Positions 653 to 27,512 of a DNA stretch of 64,000 bases are shown piece by piece. Both the position numbers and the translations under genes were made by a program. The stretch comes from Trametopsis cervina. Its lineage: Eukaryota; Basidiomycota; Agaricomycetes; Polyporales; Irpicaceae. The notes under the pieces are model-generated. The model ran no database searches. It saw nothing but the letters and a program-made list of their open reading frames with translations, and was not told where the DNA came from. Numbering within the stretch: the first letter of the stretch is position 1; the number at the start of each line of letters is the position of its first letter. Location: positions 698,805 to 762,804 of the forward strand of contig MU278354.1 in the NCBI GenBank assembly GCA_022385755.1, read 5' to 3'.

Positions 653-2298
653 TTAAGCAGGCAGGCCCCAGATCCGTACGTCTCTACCGCTCGCACCCCA
701 AATCTCCTTCCCATCTCCACTGAAGACGAAGTCAACGACTTCGCCACCCTCCTCGAATCGGACAAGCTCTTCCCAGGTCTTGTGAGCGAACACGCGGACA
801 CCTTCGCTTCCCGCAACACCAAGCAACTGCGCGCTGTAGTCGTACAGAACCTTGTGGGTCTTGAAACCGTCGCCCAACTGAATGGAGTGCGCCAACTTCG
901 GCTTGCGCAAGTCCCAAATCGCGACTGACGAAAGGGAGTCGGGGGCAAGCAGGTGGTATCCATTTTCAGAGAAGCTCAAAGAGTTCACTGTGAAAGGAAC
1001 TCCAGAGGGCGGTGTGAGCGTGGCGGCGACTGCGCCGGAGCGGATGTCGAAGATTTGAATGGTGGAGGCAGGGCCACCGACGGCGAGAAGTGTACCGTCA
1101 GGATGGACCGCAAGAGAGGTAATAGGCTCGTCCGATTCTGCTGAGCGATATACTTGGTCAAAGGTGTTCAGATCGTGTAACGAATATGTGCGGTCGGCGG
1201 AGCTGAGAGCCAAGAGGGTGGAGGTCGGGTGGACAACGAGACCTGTAATTTCACCCTTGTGGGTACGGATTGTGCCCTTGGGGATGTATTCACCAGAGGC
1301 TTCGTCTGGCGACCATGCCTTAACCATCTTGTCGGCACCACCAGAGAGGAGCAGTGTCGGTTCGCCCTCGCGCTCCCTGAAAGCGACGTGGTTGATCTTC
1401 TTCGTGTGTCCTTTGAGCGATGCCAAAACCTTGTCCGTCGACCTATCGTAAAGCTGAACAACCTTGTCGTTCCCACCAGTGAGGAATTGAGAAGGGTTTG
1501 TCTTTGAAACAGCAAGAGCCGTAACACCAGCGGGAGACGATGCATGCAGAGATGGCACGGTGTGCTTGGGGGTGAAGGTCTTGATTTCCTCCTGAGTAAC
1601 GTACCCAGCAGGGGCCTTGCGCTTCTTACGAGCGGCGGAAAGGGTCTTGTGGGTCTCATCTATCTGGCTGAGGACGTTTTCAGGGAGTCCGCCGGCCTCG
1701 GCAGCCTCTGTCATCTCAACGTCTCCAGCAGCACCGTTAGCTGGGGCAACACCCATCGTTGCGGAAACGCTGGCAAGTGCCCTGTTTACGAAAACAAATG
1801 ATATCTGTCAGTTCTCGAAACTATACGTCGCGGTGGGAGGAGTACTGACTCTCGTGCAGCGTCACGTTCGCGTATAAGACGCGCAACAACACGCGTAGCC
1901 GCATCTTGAGTGTAGAGCGAAACACTGAGTTCTTGCTTCAAGGAGTTGTTCTGTTGCTTGAGCGCGAAAACTTCGAGCATTGCAGCATCCCACTCATTCT
2001 GCAGAGTTTGCAACAAGGCCGGGATAGAAGATGCTGCCGGAGGCCGCGGAGCAGTGGTCTTTGGGTCTGAAAAGGAACAGGTCAGGTCGTTAGCCTAGAT
2101 ACAACATGATTCGCTTATAGGGTACGCACTGGCTTTGACTGAAATCAAGTCCGACTCCTCCAACTTGTCACCTGTAATGGGGTCCGTGCCATTTTCGGTG
2201 ATGTACTTGAGGATGAGGCGACGTTCATATACCTGACCAGACTTTTGAGAGACAACAGGGTCCTGCGGCAACTCGCCAGAGATCGCGCAGAAGAACAT
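653..2298 (-). CDS. PRP19: Prp19, U-box E3 ubiquitin ligase of the spliceosomal NineTeen complex
   Basis: Three exons: 2298-2130, 2066-1850 and 1781-653, joined in phase to 504 residues, the same length as human PRPF19. Residues 1-60 are a U-box beginning MFFCAISGELPQDPVV. Residues about 60-135 are the Prp19 helical and coiled-coil region (LLQTLQNEWDAAMLEVF, AATRVVARLIRERDAARE). The rest is a WD40 propeller with repeated GG.DK and LYDRSTDKV-type blades, ending in VRIWGLPA. As established for the family, Prp19 tetramerises, carries K63-linked ubiquitin activity and stabilises U5/U6 in the activated spliceosome in the nucleus. It lies head to head with Sgt2, 315 bp apart, so they probably share a promoter region. 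Family assignment is firm; the two small introns were placed by alignment to known Prp19 proteins. Confidence 0.96.
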
Positions 2299-7471: not shown

Positions 7472-8652
7472 TCAAAGTGCGAGGGAGCCGAGAATGCCAG
7501 TAAGCTGAACTTCGTGTACTTCGTCGACGACGGACTTGAGGAAGTCGTCGACATCACGAGCAGAAGCGACTGGTGCCTCAGGTAGAACTCCGAGGTCAGC
7601 CATGACCATGGCGAGGGATGCTACCGGGTCCTCAAGTTGGACTTCGAGGTCAACCATTCCCATCGCCAGTGCTGATAGAGGGTCCTCGAGGTAGACTTCG
7701 AAGTCAGCAAGCTCCATTACCGGTGCCGCCACAGGGGCCTCGGGGTGGACTTCGAGCTCAGCAAGCCCCATCGCTAGTGCTGCGACAGCAGGGTCCTCAG
7801 ACTCAGGTGTAGTCGACGCCTTGCCAACAGCGAACCACTCCTCGAGCTCCTTGAAGTCCAGTGCGACCTTGGATGTCTCCTTGTTGCAAGAAACCGAGTT
7901 GTCCGTTGCACGGTCAAGAATGTGGCTGGTGACTCCCCTAGTGTGCAGGTCATACGGCCAGACGCGAAGATGGAAAGGAACCTTCGACATGCTGCCCGGT
8001 ACGGTCGATGTCGATGCGGGAATGACATTGACCTTCGGCTGGGTCTTGCGTTGTTGCCTGAGGATGAGACGGTCCGAGCGTGCAGGTGGCGGTGTCGCAA
8101 GGGAGAAAGAGCTTGCTAGCGACGAGGCGAAGGAATGAGACAACGATGGGATATCTGCCGGCGTGTGCACAACGGCAGGAGCGACGGCGTTGTCAAGGAT
8201 GTTACCCAATAGAGAAGCCTCCATTGTCGAAGACATTGCATCTCGTTGAGCCTTCGCTGCATCAGCCCATAACGAGCGAAATGCCGTATCGTCGACGTCC
8301 ATGTTGACATACGTGGGCTCATCTATAGGCACGGGATGCATCCAGACATCACCGTCGTCGTCCATGGAGACAACCTTGTCCTTAAGGAAGGTCAGCGTTG
8401 GATGCACACAGCATACATAGATCAACATACCCCGTCAATGTCGACGAACATCGGCTGCGGGTCTTCGATAGACATGTTCTCGAACCACACCAACCACTCG
8501 GGGTCAAGCGAGCTTGGCGGCGTCGGGAAGACAGGCTCATCGCCAAACTCGGGGAACCTCTCGACAGTGTCGAGGTCAGGGTCCTCGACCACAAAGATCT
8601 CACTGGGTCTCCACATGTTGTACTCAAGCGGAGGGCTCGGGAAGTACGCCAT
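7472..8652 (-). CDS. Hypothetical acidic protein with four 18-19 residue C-terminal repeats
   Basis: Two exons, 8652-8431 and 8380-7472, joined in phase 0 across a GTATGT..AAG intron, give 376 residues. I do not recognise a family. The N-terminal part is Pro- and acid-rich (MAYFPSPPLEYNMWRPSEI; FVDIDG joined to DKVVSMDDDGDVWM). A Ser/Thr-rich middle follows. Near the C-terminus there are four tandem repeats, each starting E-D/A-P and ending D/E-L/F-x-V (EDPAVAALAMGLAELEV, EAPVAAPVMELADFEV, EDPLSALAMGMVDLEV, EDPVASLAMVMADLGV), encoded at about 7578-7802. No signal peptide or membrane segment is seen. The splice consensus and the frame running through both exons support a real gene; the function is unknown. 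It is probably restricted to this lineage. Confidence 0.65.
7578..7802 (-). repeat. 54-57 bp coding tandem repeats
   Basis: Four consecutive units inside the hypothetical protein share a pattern of about 18 codons. Each unit contains a GGGTCCTC / GGGGCCTC block followed by a GACTTCGA(A/G)GTCAGC-like block on the plus strand. Units differ at many positions, so the array is old or under selection at protein level. Confidence 0.7.
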
Positions 8653-17590: not shown

Positions 17591-20619
<3,029 letters not shown>

Positions 20620-22007
20620 GGCGGCGAGGTTTTGTGTGGAATAAGAGGGGAGGGGAGGACGAACACGCTCGCGAGGTCGCGGTAATTACGACGCGTTCGA
20701 CACGTCGAGCCGTGACCAAAATTCCTCACCAGCGCGAGATGACCTGCCCTAAACGTTCGCACTGTCGCCCGGCGGCCGTCCGGGCTCCGGCAAGCTTAAG
20801 GGCCGGTGTTCCGCTTCCCGCTTTACCAATGACATCGGGCGGCCAGTTGCATCGGGAACTGCTGTCAAGGACCGTCACACAATGTCAAACGGTAAATCAC
20901 GTCCGCGTCCAGTTCGAAGTGTGTGTCGGCTTCGAGTTCGAGAAGGGAGAAGAGACTCGAGTGGGATTGGCGGGAGTCTCAACTCAACCGCGGTAACTTA
21001 CTGTCCAGGCCGGGGGTGCGGGGATGGGGATGGGTGCAATTGCGCGGGCCAGGTACGTGGTTCTACATACTTGCATAACGTTCAACCTACTTAAGTGCTG
21101 CAATTTAGCCGAATGCTGAAGGTAGCGTTCTGACAGGAGTCTAACGCATTTGCGATATGCACGCCACCGGCGGATAACCTTCGGAGGCAGGCGATAGCGA
21201 ATGCGGTACACAGAGGTAAAAACGGAGATACCTCTGACGCGTACGGTACGAGTCTGCGCGAAGGTGGCCCTGGGTTCCTGGCGAAGTACACAAGCAGTAG
21301 CGGTCATACCAAGTTCGTACCCACTCCGTGCTCTGGACTCGAGCCCCGCACCCCAGCATCGGAAATTATGCCGGACGTGTCGTAACTGAGCAAACCTTCG
21401 TGAACATGTAGATTATCGCCGCCAGGCATTCTTATCGCTCGCAATAGAAATCTGTCGTCACAGGCTCTCGGTCGCTGCTTTCGTCGTATGGACTTACGAG
21501 AATGGCGAGGTACGTCTTCTGCACCACTAAGCACGCGGAGATGCGGAGTAAGTAGCGCGGTCAATAGAGTAAGGTTGCAATGAGTCAATTTACAATTGAG
21601 CGAGTCGGAAAGAGAGACGGAGAGAGACAGAGACAGAGAGACGGTAGGAACGGACAACGAGATGGAGCAAGCGAATAAACGAAGCAATAAACACGAATGA
21701 ACGGCACGGTGACGATGACTGTAGTTCGGACAAGGCCACTAGCTTTTCAAGCAGGATGTCTTCTTCGACCACTATAAGACACCAGTATTTCACGAGGCGG
21801 GTTGCAGGTTAGATTGAGGATGGATACAGTATTGTCGCGCGTCGATATACACACAACGAGGGGTCGAGGAGTACCAGTAACATGTCAAGGACTGCGGCAA
21901 GAATTACTGAGAGAGAGCGGCCGTAAGTTGGTATGTCGTGTGCGGATCACGGGAGGCGGAAACGCACCTCATTCTTTGCCTCGTCCATCAAGCCTTCAGT
22001 TCAATCT
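20620..22007. other. 1.4 kb without a gene, MCM3 upstream region
   Basis: Contains the MCM3 promoter, a GA-rich microsatellite at about 21600-21645 and the 3' flank of the micro-exon peptide gene. The 127-codon minus-strand frame at 21687-21304 is a Ser/Leu run produced by the microsatellite and is not taken as a gene. Confidence 0.4.
21600..21645 (+). repeat. GA-rich microsatellite (GAGAGAC / CAGAGA units)
   Basis: Consecutive GAGAGACGGAGAGAGACAGA-like units lie between 21608 and 21640. It is a simple repeat with no visible coding role. Confidence 0.7.
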
Positions 22008-22459
22008 TTACCAACCGCCAGCGCCCTTGTTCTGATAGATAGATGATGTCAACAGGATTGAATGGACTAAGACGACAGTCGGACGTACGTCTACGCGCTT
22101 CCAGCCGGCACCGCGTCCTCCCTAAGGAATGTGTCAGAGGGGCTTCGGGGATGTATCTACCCGACGGCTCGACTTACGCTCTGCGGGAGGGGAGCAATGT
22201 CAGTATTACACGCGACGGAAGTGAAAAGTGGGTGAACGCACATCTCCGCGTTTCCATCCTGCAGTCCCCTCATGACCCTACAAACATTGATCAGACGGCG
22301 CGCACTAGCGGCAGCATCAGGGGGCACTTACTTCCTGCAGCGGGGGGTCAGCTAGCTGTTCAATAAAAGCTACGACACGAGAATACTCACAGGGGCAGGG
22401 GCAGCGACCGCGACGGCAGCGAGGGTGAGGGTGATAAGGGCGGCAAGAGAGAATTTCAT
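22008..22459 (-). CDS. Secreted Kex2-type repeat peptide precursor with 3 nt micro-exons
   Basis: Six phase-0 exons: 22459-22391 (69 nt), 22334-22332 (3 nt, Glu), 22277-22242 (36), 22180-22178 (3 nt, Ser), 22121-22089 (33) and 22031-22008 (24 with stop), a 55-residue product. All five introns are 54-61 nt with GT..AG ends; both 3 nt exons sit exactly between CAG and GTAAGT. Exon 1 is a clear signal peptide (MKFSLAALITLTLAAVAVAA). Each of the three repeat exons carries one unit: GTAGWKR, GRGAGWKR and a final KGAGGW before the stop. Lys-Arg after Trp is a Kex2 site, so secretion and cleavage would free short Gly/Ala peptides; trimming of the KR tail is inferred. The exon-per-repeat layout and matching units argue against chance. 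I know no named family. A minimal read without the 3 nt exons would still be in frame. The last exon could also splice on at a GTAAAG donor inside the final GGTTGG. Confidence 0.75.
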
Positions 22460-25325
22460 GGTGGGGGGATATGCACGGAGCTGGGAAAAGGTGTGAGAAG
22501 CGCGATAATGTATTTATGTAGCCCGCGGGGGGACCGTCAATGCGGGTGAAGATCTTTCGACCAGGCCCGGTGATCGCTCCACTTCCACACACGTGCCGCT
22601 GGCGGGCAACAATAACGGCGCCTGTGCCTGGCACCCGGCATGTCACGCGTCACACGCGCGTGGGTTTGATCGAAATGTCCCGTATTTGGGCAGCCCGGCA
22701 GCCTTCGGAGGCCTCGCCGGCGCGCGTCTGTGCCTGCCAGGCCCGTCCCTGAAACCTAGTTCGCAGCGCCATGCGGGTCCTTACAGCGTCGTGATAACCA
22801 GCGAACCAGAGCGAAACCCGTCTGGCCTGCTGCCAGTGCACCCGCTGCGTCGCCACCGTGACCACGTCGCGACGGCAGTACGACCGGGCAACTGCTGTTG
22901 CCAGGAGATGCTCGCACGGTGCTGTACACGCACGCTCGCGAACTGCACGGCAGGCAACAAGGCACAGACACCGCGGAACGGCGAGGGGCTCGTTCGCGAC
23001 TGGTTGGCTGGTTGGCTGCTGGACTGGGGCGGTGGGTCTGAGCCCGGACCTCATCCCGATCCAACCAGTCATCGGTCCAGATTGCTGCACGGTGGTGAGC
23101 CGCGCCATTCGTATAGCAAAATGTTCAGCCAGCTCTCGTGTTCAGGCATGCACGCATAAGACTTCATTGTACGCTTCATTTAACTCTGATTAAACTCGCC
23201 GCTGTCGGGTGGAAGGTGGGGACATGCGATATCGCACCAATATGAGCTGCTAGTACCAGTACGAGCGAGCGTACGCCCGCCAAGCCGCCATCTCCGTTCC
23301 TGTAAATAATGTACCCATCCTGCAGAGCATCCGGGATCCCGTTGCACCGTAATGATTCAGCCGCAACGACAGCCAGTTTCTGCTTAAACACAGTCTCTTA
23401 CCGCGGCGGGCTGATCAAGCCCGCGTCCTGCGGATCCAACGGCGAAGACGGTGCACCGTTGTGCGTTTGCTACACAACTGCGTTGATCAGCCAGATCCCG
23501 TCTGTCGCGAGGCATGTGCAGTGTGGTCCGTGATGCATAACTTGCATGAATCACGCGACGTTTGACCACATCTACCGAACGCGCAATTACTGTAGCCACA
23601 GCACCTGAAGATTGCAGCATAAAGGAAAGCTTCCAGGCCCCGGTCAATCTGTATAGATGTTATATCAGGTATTAACGGCAGCTTCTAGAAGTAGTGCCCC
23701 ACTGCAAGAGAAATTGGACAGACGCACGCATGTATTGGGCGACCAACGAGGCACGCATAGAGAAAGTGTGCATAGGTATACCGAACTTGCTCGTCTACCT
23801 ATGCTCACTTTTACCCATTGGATTTTAGCTGTCAAGTTTCGCCGATAGAGCGTGTGCAGTTAAAGATAGCCCACGCCGTCCTGTGAGCTTGTAGCAAGTA
23901 CGTTTCCACATGAAGACACTCCAGATTGTCAGAGGTCCAAAAGCCGCAGGTACGCAACGCAATGGAAGGTCCGGGAAGTGCGAGCCACATGTCTAGGAAC
24001 AATGTATCATCTCAGGACGGATGTGGCCACCTAGAAAGAAGCAGTATGTAAGCCATTTCAAAACATGCAGTGCCCATAATTGAATACTTACGCTCGCACC
24101 CCCGAGTTGATCTTGTCATTATTGTGACACTTGTGGCTGCAAACGGGATTCAATTCCTGCCTGCGGATTAGGAAGTGTAAGCAAATTGTACGCCTTCGAT
24201 ATGATGACGATCATACAGTGAATCATAGGTGGCGCACTCACTCGAGATCGCCCTTCGCAACAAACCAGCAGTCATTCTGAAACATCACAGTGAGTATGTT
24301 GCGAAACAGTCCTGAACAACTCGAATTAGCGCCAGCGATGACAGCCAAACGGAACTGAGGATGCAACGCAGTCCGGGGGCCTCCCGCAGCTCACGGTGGC
24401 ACGCCCTCTCTCCCACGTTCTAATCGTGCACTCTTCTCGAGATTAACGTGCGCATTTGACATTGCGCATCTCCATCAGAGGCGAATGTCCAGCTCTTGCA
24501 ACTGCTCCCGCGCTACGCCCGCGCCTGATCACACCACAACATTGGGACGGGACGTCAGATAGAAGAGATATCAATGCAAGAAGGGAACGCTGACGGAAGT
24601 TTTGCTTTTACGACCGACCGAACGAACTTTGACGACGATGGCCTGATGCCTGGCAGCGCGGTGATCCCAGTGCCGACTGGACTGCGCGCGATGTTGCCGT
24701 AGCCTGTACGTTGGAAAAGAAATGGATAGGAGCGAGCTCGATGGCCATCTGATGACGCCGCGGATAGCAGCTGAACGTGTGTGGGCGCCGGACGAGCTAT
24801 TGCATCCGGTGTGCGGAAATCCCAACTAAAGGATGCGGATGCGGCACGGGCTGGACCCAAACAGTGCTCCGGTGACTTAGAGCGAGGCATGTGTTTCGCC
24901 CCTGCACTGGAACCTTCCGCCGTCCTATCAAGCTCTATCGAAAAAAGCTGGGTAGAATCCCTCCTGCATGATGCAACATCAGAACATACAGCACGAGAAG
25001 AAGCATAATGTGCAGTGCACGGTGTGCTCCGGGTAGGAAACGGAGGGGGTGTGTCCCCTGCTGCCCCATTCATTCGAGCAATGACGCGCGGCAGATAGAC
25101 GCAACTCGGCACCATGCATGCATCTCATCTCTGCACTGCAGCCACACCCACGGCCGGCATGCGCTCTCAGAATAGCACGCACCATAGCCCGCGATGCCGA
25201 ATCTGTAAGCACAGTCGTATTAATAAAACAGCAGTAACGTGTTATGTTATGAAACAAGTGGCGGCCGAGTGATGTCATGAACAGAAAACCGCGCGCGAGT
25301 AGGTACTGTACACACGTCGGGGTAA
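22460..25325. other. 2.9 kb gene-poor stretch between peptide gene and Prp17
   Basis: Left part is GC-rich and would carry the peptide gene promoter. Frames at plus 22593-23159 (188 codons) and minus 25115-24555 (186 codons) lack domains, splice-consistent extensions and a natural start context, so I do not call them. A further micro-exon gene could be hidden here; I found none by eye. Confidence 0.4.
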
Positions 25326-27512
25326 TCAGTCCTGCAGAAAGGGAAGAGAGGATCAGCATTCATTGAAAGCAGCCGTTTGCCGCCTGGGAGCGAAGACGTC
25401 CGTTAAGGCATAGAAGGAGGCGCTTACCCAAAGCTTAATGAGTCCGTCCCAGGACGCTGTGATCACTTTTGACTGCAGGACGATAAAAGTACCATAGTCA
25501 GGCGAGCAGCGAACGCGGGGGCACGGGATGACATCACGCACCGATTCGTGGGGAAGCCACTCGTGGGCAATGACCACCTTGCTGTGGGCGCGCAGCCGGG
25601 ACTTGATGCGGCCCGTCTTCCAGTCCCAGAACACGACGTTGCCGTCGCCGTCGCCGCTGCTGATCCACTTGCCATCCGGCGAAAAGCCCACCTGGCAGGC
25701 GTACCCCGCGACCGAGTGTCCGGCGAACCGCTTGTTTCTCGCCTGCCGGAAATTGTCCGTGCTGTAGACTAGGATCTGGTTGTCGAGCGACTGGGCCGCA
25801 AAGTATTTTTCTGTGGAACGGTGCGCGGAACACACACGGGAAGCACGTCAGAGCTGGCCACGCACGCACGAACGCAGACCCTCGAATCTTATCAATAGAC
25901 GCACTGTTTGGGTGTAGCGTGACGGAAGGCATCGAGTGCATATGGGGCTCGGCGATGTACTTGATTACAACTGGGATATCGAAATCCCAAGCTCGTATTG
26001 TTTTGTCATCCGAGGTGGTCACGAACCGCCGGTTTTCGTCCACAAAGGTAATTGAGTTCACAGGACCGAGATGTTGATCATATTCCTGAGTGATTTCGCC
26101 AGAGTTCATGTCATACTGCGCGTGATTTAGATATCGGCGTCAGTCAACAGGAAGGATCAGGATGTATGCCGCGCGCACCTGGATGATCTTCTTGTCGGAC
26201 ATGCCAGCGAGGAAGATGTGCTGCTTGTCCTCGTCCGGGTGGAATCGTACGACGTACGGGATCTTACCGTTGCTGAAACGCTTCAGACACTGGCCCGTCT
26301 CGGTGTCCCAGAGTTTCATCTGACGGTCGTAACCGCACGATAGGAACTTTCTTCCATCATTGGAAAACGTAACATCCTTGACAGCCTTCATGTGCCCATG
26401 GAACGTACGAAGACAGTTTCCATGCGTGTAGACGTCCCACAACTGCCATCTCGGTAAGTGCCACAACGCAGAACAACGCTAGAAACAGCACTCGCCTTGA
26501 TTTTGGTGTCCATAGAGCCGCTCAGCAGCAGGTGGCCAGTTTCGGGGAACAGACGAATGACAGACACGCCTTGTGTGTGCCCGGTCCAGGTATGTATGCA
26601 CGATTTGGGAATGAACGTCTCTTGTGAACCAGACTCGTGCTGCAGCTGCGGGGCCTCGGAAAGCGGTGGCGACATGTATGTTCTCCCCTGGTAGTCGGTC
26701 AGAGACTTGCCATGGAAGACCGACGACTCCAGGCCTGGGGCACCGCGTTTCGGCTTCGCCTTCCGTATCTGAACCTCCTCCTCTGGCTCCTCATCTTCTT
26801 CCTCCTCCTCTTCCTCTGCAGCTTCATCTCCCACTGGCGCGTGGCTCTCCTGTTCTTCACCCTGCCACTTCGCCCAAGGTCCCTCGTACGCCCCGTCCCC
26901 CTCTACAATCTCCAGGTCCCCCTTTGCCTTTCGTTTTCGCTTCAGCTCCTTCTTTTGCGCTTTCGGGGCCTTTATGGTGTCTAGCGTCGCAAACCCATTT
27001 GCTTGCGCCTTTTCTAGCGAACCCAGGATAGCGGGAGCGTTGGGGTCAACCGAGGGATTTGCAGAGTAGCCGAGAATGGAGTGCGTCAAGTGTTGCTGAC
27101 GGAAGGCATGGTCCGTCATAGATTGCTCTTCAACATGGCCTGCGAGAGCATTCTGGTTGAGGAAGCGATTGCGGTCGCCGAAGGGGTTCTCCGGGCCTTG
27201 TAAAGGCTTCATCATGTCATCGTATCCAATGTTGACGTTCATGCGAGTGTCCGTTGGTCGCATAACCAACGACGTCTGTGCCAATGGATCCTATACATGA
27301 AAACTTTCATGAGTTTGGAACACTCGCGAAGACCGTATTGTCAGACGCACCTCTGAAAGAACATGAGGCGCAGCCTCTACCGTGAGGCTCGACGACGAGG
27401 CTTCCACGCGAGGCCGCTTCGTCGCCGGGAGGGCCGCCAGCCCAAACGCGTCGTTCGCGTCGATAATAGGGCCGTCATCCTCTTCAGACGAGTATCCTTG
27501 GACGAGGGACAT
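25326..27512 (-). CDS. PRP17: Prp17/CDC40, WD40 second-step splicing factor
   Basis: Seven exons: 27512-27351, 27290-26496, 26442-26179, 26115-25905, 25810-25542, 25472-25428 and 25331-25326, in phase for 583 residues (human CDC40 has 579). The N-terminus starts [15 protein letters not shown]; an earlier in-frame ATG is at 27530. A conserved block [15 protein letters not shown] and an acidic Glu tract precede seven WD40 blades, including [39 protein letters not shown] and [14 protein letters not shown] at the very end. The final exon encodes just Asp and the stop. Intron 2 starts with GC rather than GT. Prp17 acts in the nucleus at the second catalytic step of splicing, in the same complex family as Prp19. 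It is divergent from the Myb gene. Confidence 0.95.

Follow-up and report, generated by a model that had tools for sequence, protein, structure and literature searches.

Kex2-processed repeat proteins (KEPs) have been surveyed twice in fungi and, as far as the texts are available, both surveys begin from annotated proteins and a minimum segment number (PMC6339444, PMC7329392). Le Marquer et al. require at least four fragments after KR/RR cuts (PMC6339444), and Umemura et al. at least three tandem repeats of at least 8 aa between Kex2 sites, with a 40-aa seed (PMC7329392). In the available parts of the first survey, the peptide size class 9-24 is the commonest in Dikarya except yeast-like basidiomycetes, a basidiomycete motif, XSDW, ends in Trp, the roles named for Kex2-processed repeats are in the cell wall, as toxins and in signalling, and the Rep1 peptides of Ustilago attach to hyphae (PMC6339444). 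Another secreted basidiomycete peptide is Qsp1, which acts in quorum sensing in Cryptococcus; the accessible passages describe an 11-residue peptide that leaves the cell as a propeptide, owes its maturation to the wall protease Pqp1 and is re-imported (PMC7537855, PMC5959062).

On the side of gene architecture, schistosome micro-exon genes (MEGs) are described in the available excerpt as genes for secreted proteins with a signal peptide, built of 10-20 short exons, most of them divisible by three in length, with introns from 100 to almost 5000 bp, and as hard for automatic annotation (PMC10526429). Excerpts of the fungal literature report a very short spliced exon in Trichoderma Xlr2 (PMC11121469), micro-exons in Phanerochaete P450 genes, the shortest of 6 nt (PMC1184071), and a 1-nt exon in Fusarium CYP621A (PMC12940212); these lie in enzymes or a regulator and, within those excerpts, none is a peptide precursor. 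The strings exon, intron and splic- do not occur in the main texts of the two KEP surveys (PMC6339444, PMC7329392), and among the matches listed for a literature query with the unhyphenated spelling, none paired Kex2 with the word microexon.

What is new in the locus described here is that a predicted Kex2-cut peptide precursor is housed in an unusual micro-exon gene. Its host, Trametopsis cervina, is a white-rot polypore, and the window analysed is a stretch of 64,000 nt of its genome. We consider it probable that a single-copy gene with six phase-0 exons is spliced and processed here into three secreted peptides ending in Trp. The precursor begins with a signal-like sequence and contains Lys-Arg at two sites and three segments ending in Gly-Trp; its predicted secreted part comprises 36 residues. 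With the schistosome MEGs the gene shares the signal peptide and short exons in multiples of three, but it has six exons instead of 10-20 very short ones, and its introns measure 54-61 nt, not 100 to 5000 bp; MEGs are animal genes and the likeness is architectural only.

In function, KEPs come nearest to this precursor. The KEP likeness proposed in an earlier, sequence-only reading of this DNA held for the secreted format, in which a signal sequence precedes short, similar segments with Lys-Arg between them, as in the available KEP descriptions (PMC6339444, PMC7329392), but fell short of the rule of Le Marquer et al., since two KR sites give three fragments and not at least four. Measured against the rule of Umemura et al., the precursor has three similar segments of 9-10 aa, the first after APAP trimming, but its secreted part is shorter than the 40-residue seed, so that this rule cannot judge it. 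The N-terminal ER signal peptide of KEPs is present by our own post-hoc rule of hydropathy, charge and A-x-A, which is not the SignalP of the KEP surveys. Unlike KEPs, the gene has its peptide-coding sequence divided into symmetric micro-exons and only two cleavage sites; by analogy, the precursor would function like a KEP despite too few sites. The same reading had also found no named match for the design, but Trp-ending repeat peptides of basidiomycetes have a precedent in the XSDW motif, on the evidence of the available text (PMC6339444). Judged by eye and from partial sources, Qsp1 is similar in being a short Gly-containing basidiomycete peptide with a Trp end that comes from a secreted propeptide, and different in being a single peptide matured via Pqp1 where the present gene has segments between Lys-Arg sites (PMC7537855, PMC5959062). 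Because the available KEP procedures need annotation and a minimum number of segments, a gene of the present kind escapes both surveys, and mushroom peptide signals may be undercounted.

Exon and intron structure of the gene

The six-exon gene lies at 22459-22008 on the minus strand of the window, spans 452 bp and encodes a precursor of 55 residues by a splice model read from the sequence (Table 1). These coordinates, the splice phases and both 3-nt exons had been proposed beforehand, and all of them were exact on re-reading. All five junctions are in phase 0, and the joined translation reads MKFSLAALITLTLAAVAVAAPAP-E-GHEGTAGWKRGD-S-GGRGAGWKRVD-NKGAGGW-stop, every exon staying open and in frame. 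The 3-nt exons stand in the contexts CTGCAG/GAA/GTAAGT and CCGCAG/AGC/GTAAGT. Judged from the sequence, the micro-exon gene is very likely real.

Table 1. Features of the gene, with positions in the window; exon and intron lengths are those of the splice model.
Feature	Position	Strand	Basis
TATA-like stretch TACATAAATA, ~52 nt upstream of ATG, then pyrimidine-rich tract	22511..22520	-	by eye
Exon 1: start codon and signal sequence MKFSLAALITLTLAAVAVA/APAP, 69 nt	22391..22459	-	sequence; signal-likeness by post-hoc rule
Intron 1, 56 nt, GTGAGT...CTGAC...CAG	22335..22390	-	splice model
Exon 2: 3-nt micro-exon GAA (Glu)	22332..22334	-	splice model, shuffles
Intron 2, 54 nt, GTAAGT...CTGAT...TAG	22278..22331	-	splice model
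Exon 3: GHEGTAGW-KR-GD, 36 nt, first Kex2-type site	22242..22277	-	splice model, motif search
Intron 3, 61 nt, GTGCGT...CTGAC...CAG	22181..22241	-	splice model
Exon 4: 3-nt micro-exon AGC (Ser)	22178..22180	-	splice model, shuffles
Intron 4, 56 nt, GTAAGT...CTGAC...TAG	22122..22177	-	splice model
Exon 5: GGRGAGW-KR-VD, 33 nt, second Kex2-type site	22089..22121	-	splice model, motif search
Intron 5, 57 nt, GTACGT...TTGAC...CAG, in frame, stop-free	22032..22088	-	splice model
Exon 6: NKGAGGW and stop, 24 nt	22008..22031	-	splice model

All five introns start with GTNNGT, end in YAG and contain a branch-like YTGAY, the A of which lies 13, 13, 19, 12 and 17 nt from the 3' end in introns 1-5, respectively; intron 2 has an additional YTGAY farther upstream. 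Keeping any single one of introns 1-4 leads to stops. Retained intron 5 is read through to the identical ending and, as it is in frame and without a stop, the frame does not force its removal. Since the internal exons are in phase 0 and multiples of three, skipping a micro-exon drops one peptide residue with the frame intact; skipping of the E exon, of the S exon, or of exons 3 and 4 jointly preserves the frame. The peptides could be tuned by splicing, although no sign of actual tuning was observed. That splicing edits the output of a peptide-signal gene at single-codon resolution, with symmetric units of a 3-nt exon and a repeat exon setting both the residues and the number of Trp-ending peptides, seems to us unlikely; if true, the gene would be a fungal counterpart of the schistosome MEGs and open a class that gene finders miss in mushrooms. 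Two 3-nt exons within 452 bp would offer a compact natural test of one-codon exon definition by the fungal spliceosome.

The repeat units were compared at the level of single codons. Between exon 3 and exon 5 the AGWKR core shows three base differences, each in a third position and each synonymous, where 10 of the 45 single changes possible in this core are synonymous. The D codons of the KRx-D element differ synonymously as well, whereas the codon between KR and D differs in its residue (Gly/Val), as do the two codons ahead of the core (Gly-Thr/Arg-Gly). It seems that the AGWKR core was kept while the flanking DNA diverged, or that the units are very old; the sample is small, with three to four changes, and the five-codon core was selected afterwards. 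Among the introns, one of ten pairs (introns 4 and 5) gave a shuffle p of 0.012 and the other nine a p of at least 0.21; given this lack of convincing likeness there is no case for a recent duplication of a unit, and the duplicated unit is read from the exons alone. E, S and N occupy corresponding places, E and S as micro-exons and N joined to the last exon. From the sequence, we infer an ancestral unit made of a one-codon exon and a core-KR-x-D exon, with the separating intron absent in the last unit.

Predicted processing and possible role of the peptides

Secretion and cleavage of the precursor are likely on the basis of its sequence. Signal peptidase would cut after AVA, a dipeptidyl peptidase may remove both Ala-Pro pairs, a Kex2-type protease would cut behind each Lys-Arg, and a carboxypeptidase would trim off the Lys-Arg. 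Cuts after each Lys-Arg yield APAPEGHEGTAGW, GDSGGRGAGW and VDNKGAGGW, and removal of the two AP pairs turns the first fragment into EGHEGTAGW, so that three linear peptides of 9, 10 and 9 residues would be released. These lengths fall within the KEP size class 9-24 as given in the available text (PMC6339444).

Because Kex2 cuts after KR, the residues that close the repeat exons, GD and VD, go to the following peptide. In peptide 1, the Glu of exon 2 is the first residue after the predicted APAP trimming; peptide 2 takes GD from exon 3, its third residue, S, from the micro-exon and GGRGAGW from exon 5; and peptide 3 joins VD from exon 5 to NKGAGGW from exon 6. Each predicted peptide crosses a splice junction in this way, and released peptides and exons do not coincide. 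The exon-per-repeat design of the sequence-only reading therefore had to be given up for the released peptides, as the micro-exon residues end up inside peptides 1 and 2.

The genome was searched for proteins that could carry out these steps. For the Kex2-type protease that is also part of the KEP definition, we found one P_proprotein place (a count of at least one; E 8.5e-22), which by this domain is a candidate Kex2-type protease. DPPIV_N matched one gene, in three pieces (again at least one), and with both in the same genome, candidate processing machinery exists. In the alpha-type pheromone signature, as the available text gives it, STE13-type dipeptides (XA/XP) follow the Kex2 sites (PMC6339444), whereas here GD and VD follow KR and AP-AP occurs once, behind the signal sequence. 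The STE2 receptor had no match in the genome, and the control genomes likewise gave none.

By analogy with known secreted fungal peptides, we tentatively propose that the released linear peptides would signal extracellularly between hyphae of the same fungus. If active, they would enlarge the set of Trp-ending peptides secreted by basidiomycetes, which includes Qsp1 and the XSDW repeats. It is possible, if somewhat unlikely, that the peptides are not signals and are instead surface-active, defensive, cell-wall-bound in the manner of Rep1 or spacer-like by-products, all of which is compatible with the same gene and processing; the cell-wall and toxin roles and the hypha-attached Rep1 among Kex2-processed repeats, described in the available text, speak for such uses (PMC6339444). 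Gly-rich peptides ending in Trp could, by inference, bind surfaces. Against a non-signal role, a precursor of 55 residues supplies merely three very short peptides, and the known surface repellents of the Rep1 type are longer than these.

Rarity of the arrangement and search for relatives

Rarity was gauged in 264 kb on both strands, comprising 21 sequences (the window and twenty chosen 10-kb pieces), with the reversed sequence as control, and in whole-genome searches of the 29.4-Mb assembly in 59 contigs. The rules were composed after the gene was known, and the counts gauge rarity rather than constitute a blind test. Intron-like segments numbered 512 against 285 in the reversed control under a loose rule and 104 against 20 under a strict rule, so that the majority of the strict segments should be real introns. 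A chain of five or more intron-like segments, with 3-45 nt of exon between neighbours, was found only once in the 264 kb, under the loose and strict rules alike; it is the Trp-peptide locus, and the control had none. Pairs of intron-like segments exactly 3 nt apart occurred twice in the same sample, both times at this locus (control 0). Throughout the 29.4 Mb, W-K-R-x-D/GTRNGT has two matches, both in the gene, and none in the control. Among 4611 frames that begin with ATG and stay open for 23 codons or more, exon 1 was the one to reach the threshold of signal-likeness, which was set at the gene's own value.

In the 264 kb, intron-like segments enclosed a candidate exon of 13-30 nt in 15 cases, against 0 in the reversed control, and ordinary micro-exons, unlike 3-nt ones, seem common in the T. 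cervina genome. Besides the gene's two 3-nt exons, the sole candidate below 8 nt in the 264 kb is a 6-nt exon between two intron-like segments at L041 (plus strand, ~8203-8317).

The same data bear on whether the 3-nt exons are used at all. In a real gene without them, introns 1 and 2 would leave as a single 113-nt intron and introns 3 and 4 as one of 120 nt, or else splicing would mostly skip the micro-exons; the product would be the same three-peptide precursor minus Glu and Ser, and the frame is intact without either or both micro-exons. Genome-wide, the pattern branch-acceptor-NNN-GTRAGT matched 16 times, compared with 18 times in the reversed control; without enrichment, 3-nt exons are no detectable class in the T. 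cervina genome, which favours the longer introns. However, 2 of the 16 matches fall inside this one 452-bp gene, 154 bp apart, and each of the four introns that make up the two compound ones has canonical length, ends and branch site. When the interiors of the compound introns were shuffled, the 3-nt-exon model was restored in 25 and 14 of 20,000 trials (54 and 40 of 20,000 for any exon of 3, 6, 9 or 12 nt). We regard a gene lacking the 3-nt exons as improbable.

A search of the whole 29.4-Mb genome for a paralogue of the full precursor recovered only the Trp-peptide locus, as did three motif patterns, for which one control had 1 match and two had 0. A loose GxxGWKR-like pattern occurred at 20 places against 14 in controls; one of the 20 is the gene's second repeat, the first lying outside the pattern. 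Of the other 19 places, 5 have further W-[KR]-R runs on the same strand no more than 400 nt away (7 runs, with 1 WKR and 0 AGWKR), and in the gene itself TAGWKR lies 153 nt from the second repeat. At one place, L013 (G000:C17, ~113027, minus strand), a GTGWKR run is followed 104 nt on by an AGGWRR run in another frame, which may be chance.

Among annotated proteins of ~30-96 aa sharing three 5-residue words with the 55-residue precursor, no homologue candidate was found, MEG or other. As a positive control, a Prp19 fragment (653-1756, minus strand) matched a T. cervina protein at 100%, with related polypores among the best 120 of 497 matches; among the matches listed, Cytidiella melzeri (89%) and Irpex lacteus (86%) were the next named after T. 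cervina, and Phanerochaete sordida (82%) was among the nearer species. Annotated proteins of T. cervina and its relatives are thus present in the database, and the precursor, having no match there, is seemingly not annotated as modelled within the length range and word requirement above. This suggests a micro-exon precursor gene so far unannotated in the form modelled from the sequence, in agreement with the earlier expectation that gene finders would miss it. The sequence-only reading had also made a homologue in related species its touchstone; none appeared among annotated proteins, which is what the search covered.

A bait of 105 residues, partly invented, was also run against annotated proteins of ~58-184 aa and gave 498 candidates, one of which matched at E <=10: P0121 (E 0.017), a 179-residue predicted protein from an environmental contig (ena); its start looks signal-like by eye, and it has nine GW-KR segments. 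It resembles the Trp-peptide precursor in the signal-like start and the GW-KR format, and presumably resembles an animal-type neuropeptide precursor. With its acidic spacer, different core and different context, we judged it likely convergent and did not retain it as a relative.

That the repeats and splice-like sites are a chance or decayed set without an expressed gene is very improbable: the failure to find a homologue among annotated proteins or a paralogue in the genome would fit it, but the motif, chain, shuffle and signal-sequence counts speak against it, as do exons that are all free of stops and frame breaks. A micro-exon gene for a secreted, Lys-Arg-cut precursor of Trp-ending peptides, as first read, is supported by the layout, the single chain in 264 kb and the shuffles. 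A gene with six exons, spliced and processed as modelled, is the best explanation because of this exact layout, the five canonical introns, the unique chain, the shuffle-supported 3-nt exons and the unique W-K-R-x-D unit, and also because of the synonymous differences in the core, the outstanding signal sequence and the stops on retaining introns 1-4. Counting against it are the lack of an annotated homologue or a paralogue, the two cleavage sites only and the 3-nt exons not being enriched.

Surroundings of the gene

The gene sits in a 4.7-kb stretch between MCM domains, which we take to be those of MCM5, and a WD40 gene, presumably Prp17-like. The description of this stretch as gene-poor was borne out by Pfam, where the 24 ORFs listed from the MCM to the WD40 gene, each 60 residues or longer, match no family. 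No RNA family reached its gathering score within 20000-26000.

That the locus encodes the precursor of a UstYa-modified cyclic peptide of the dikaritin type is extremely improbable: it does share the precursor format of signal sequence, Kex2 sites and short repeats, as the available text describes it (PMC7329392), but its three peptides are without Tyr, and of the UstYa (DUF3328) genes that dikaritin/ustiloxin precursors have nearby, the at least five matches in the genome lie on C1, C11 and C18 and none on the gene's contig C7, which counts against modification by a neighbouring UstYa protein.

Some of the UstYa matches are closely paired, at G000:C1:888669-890303 and G000:C18:502119-508294, and these pairs may mark gene clusters for modified peptides. 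Elsewhere in the window, the ORF at 7472-8428 (minus strand) encodes 318 residues with 18-residue repeats, and within it, at 7576-7706, lies a 54-nt repeat of 2.4 copies with 76% matches.
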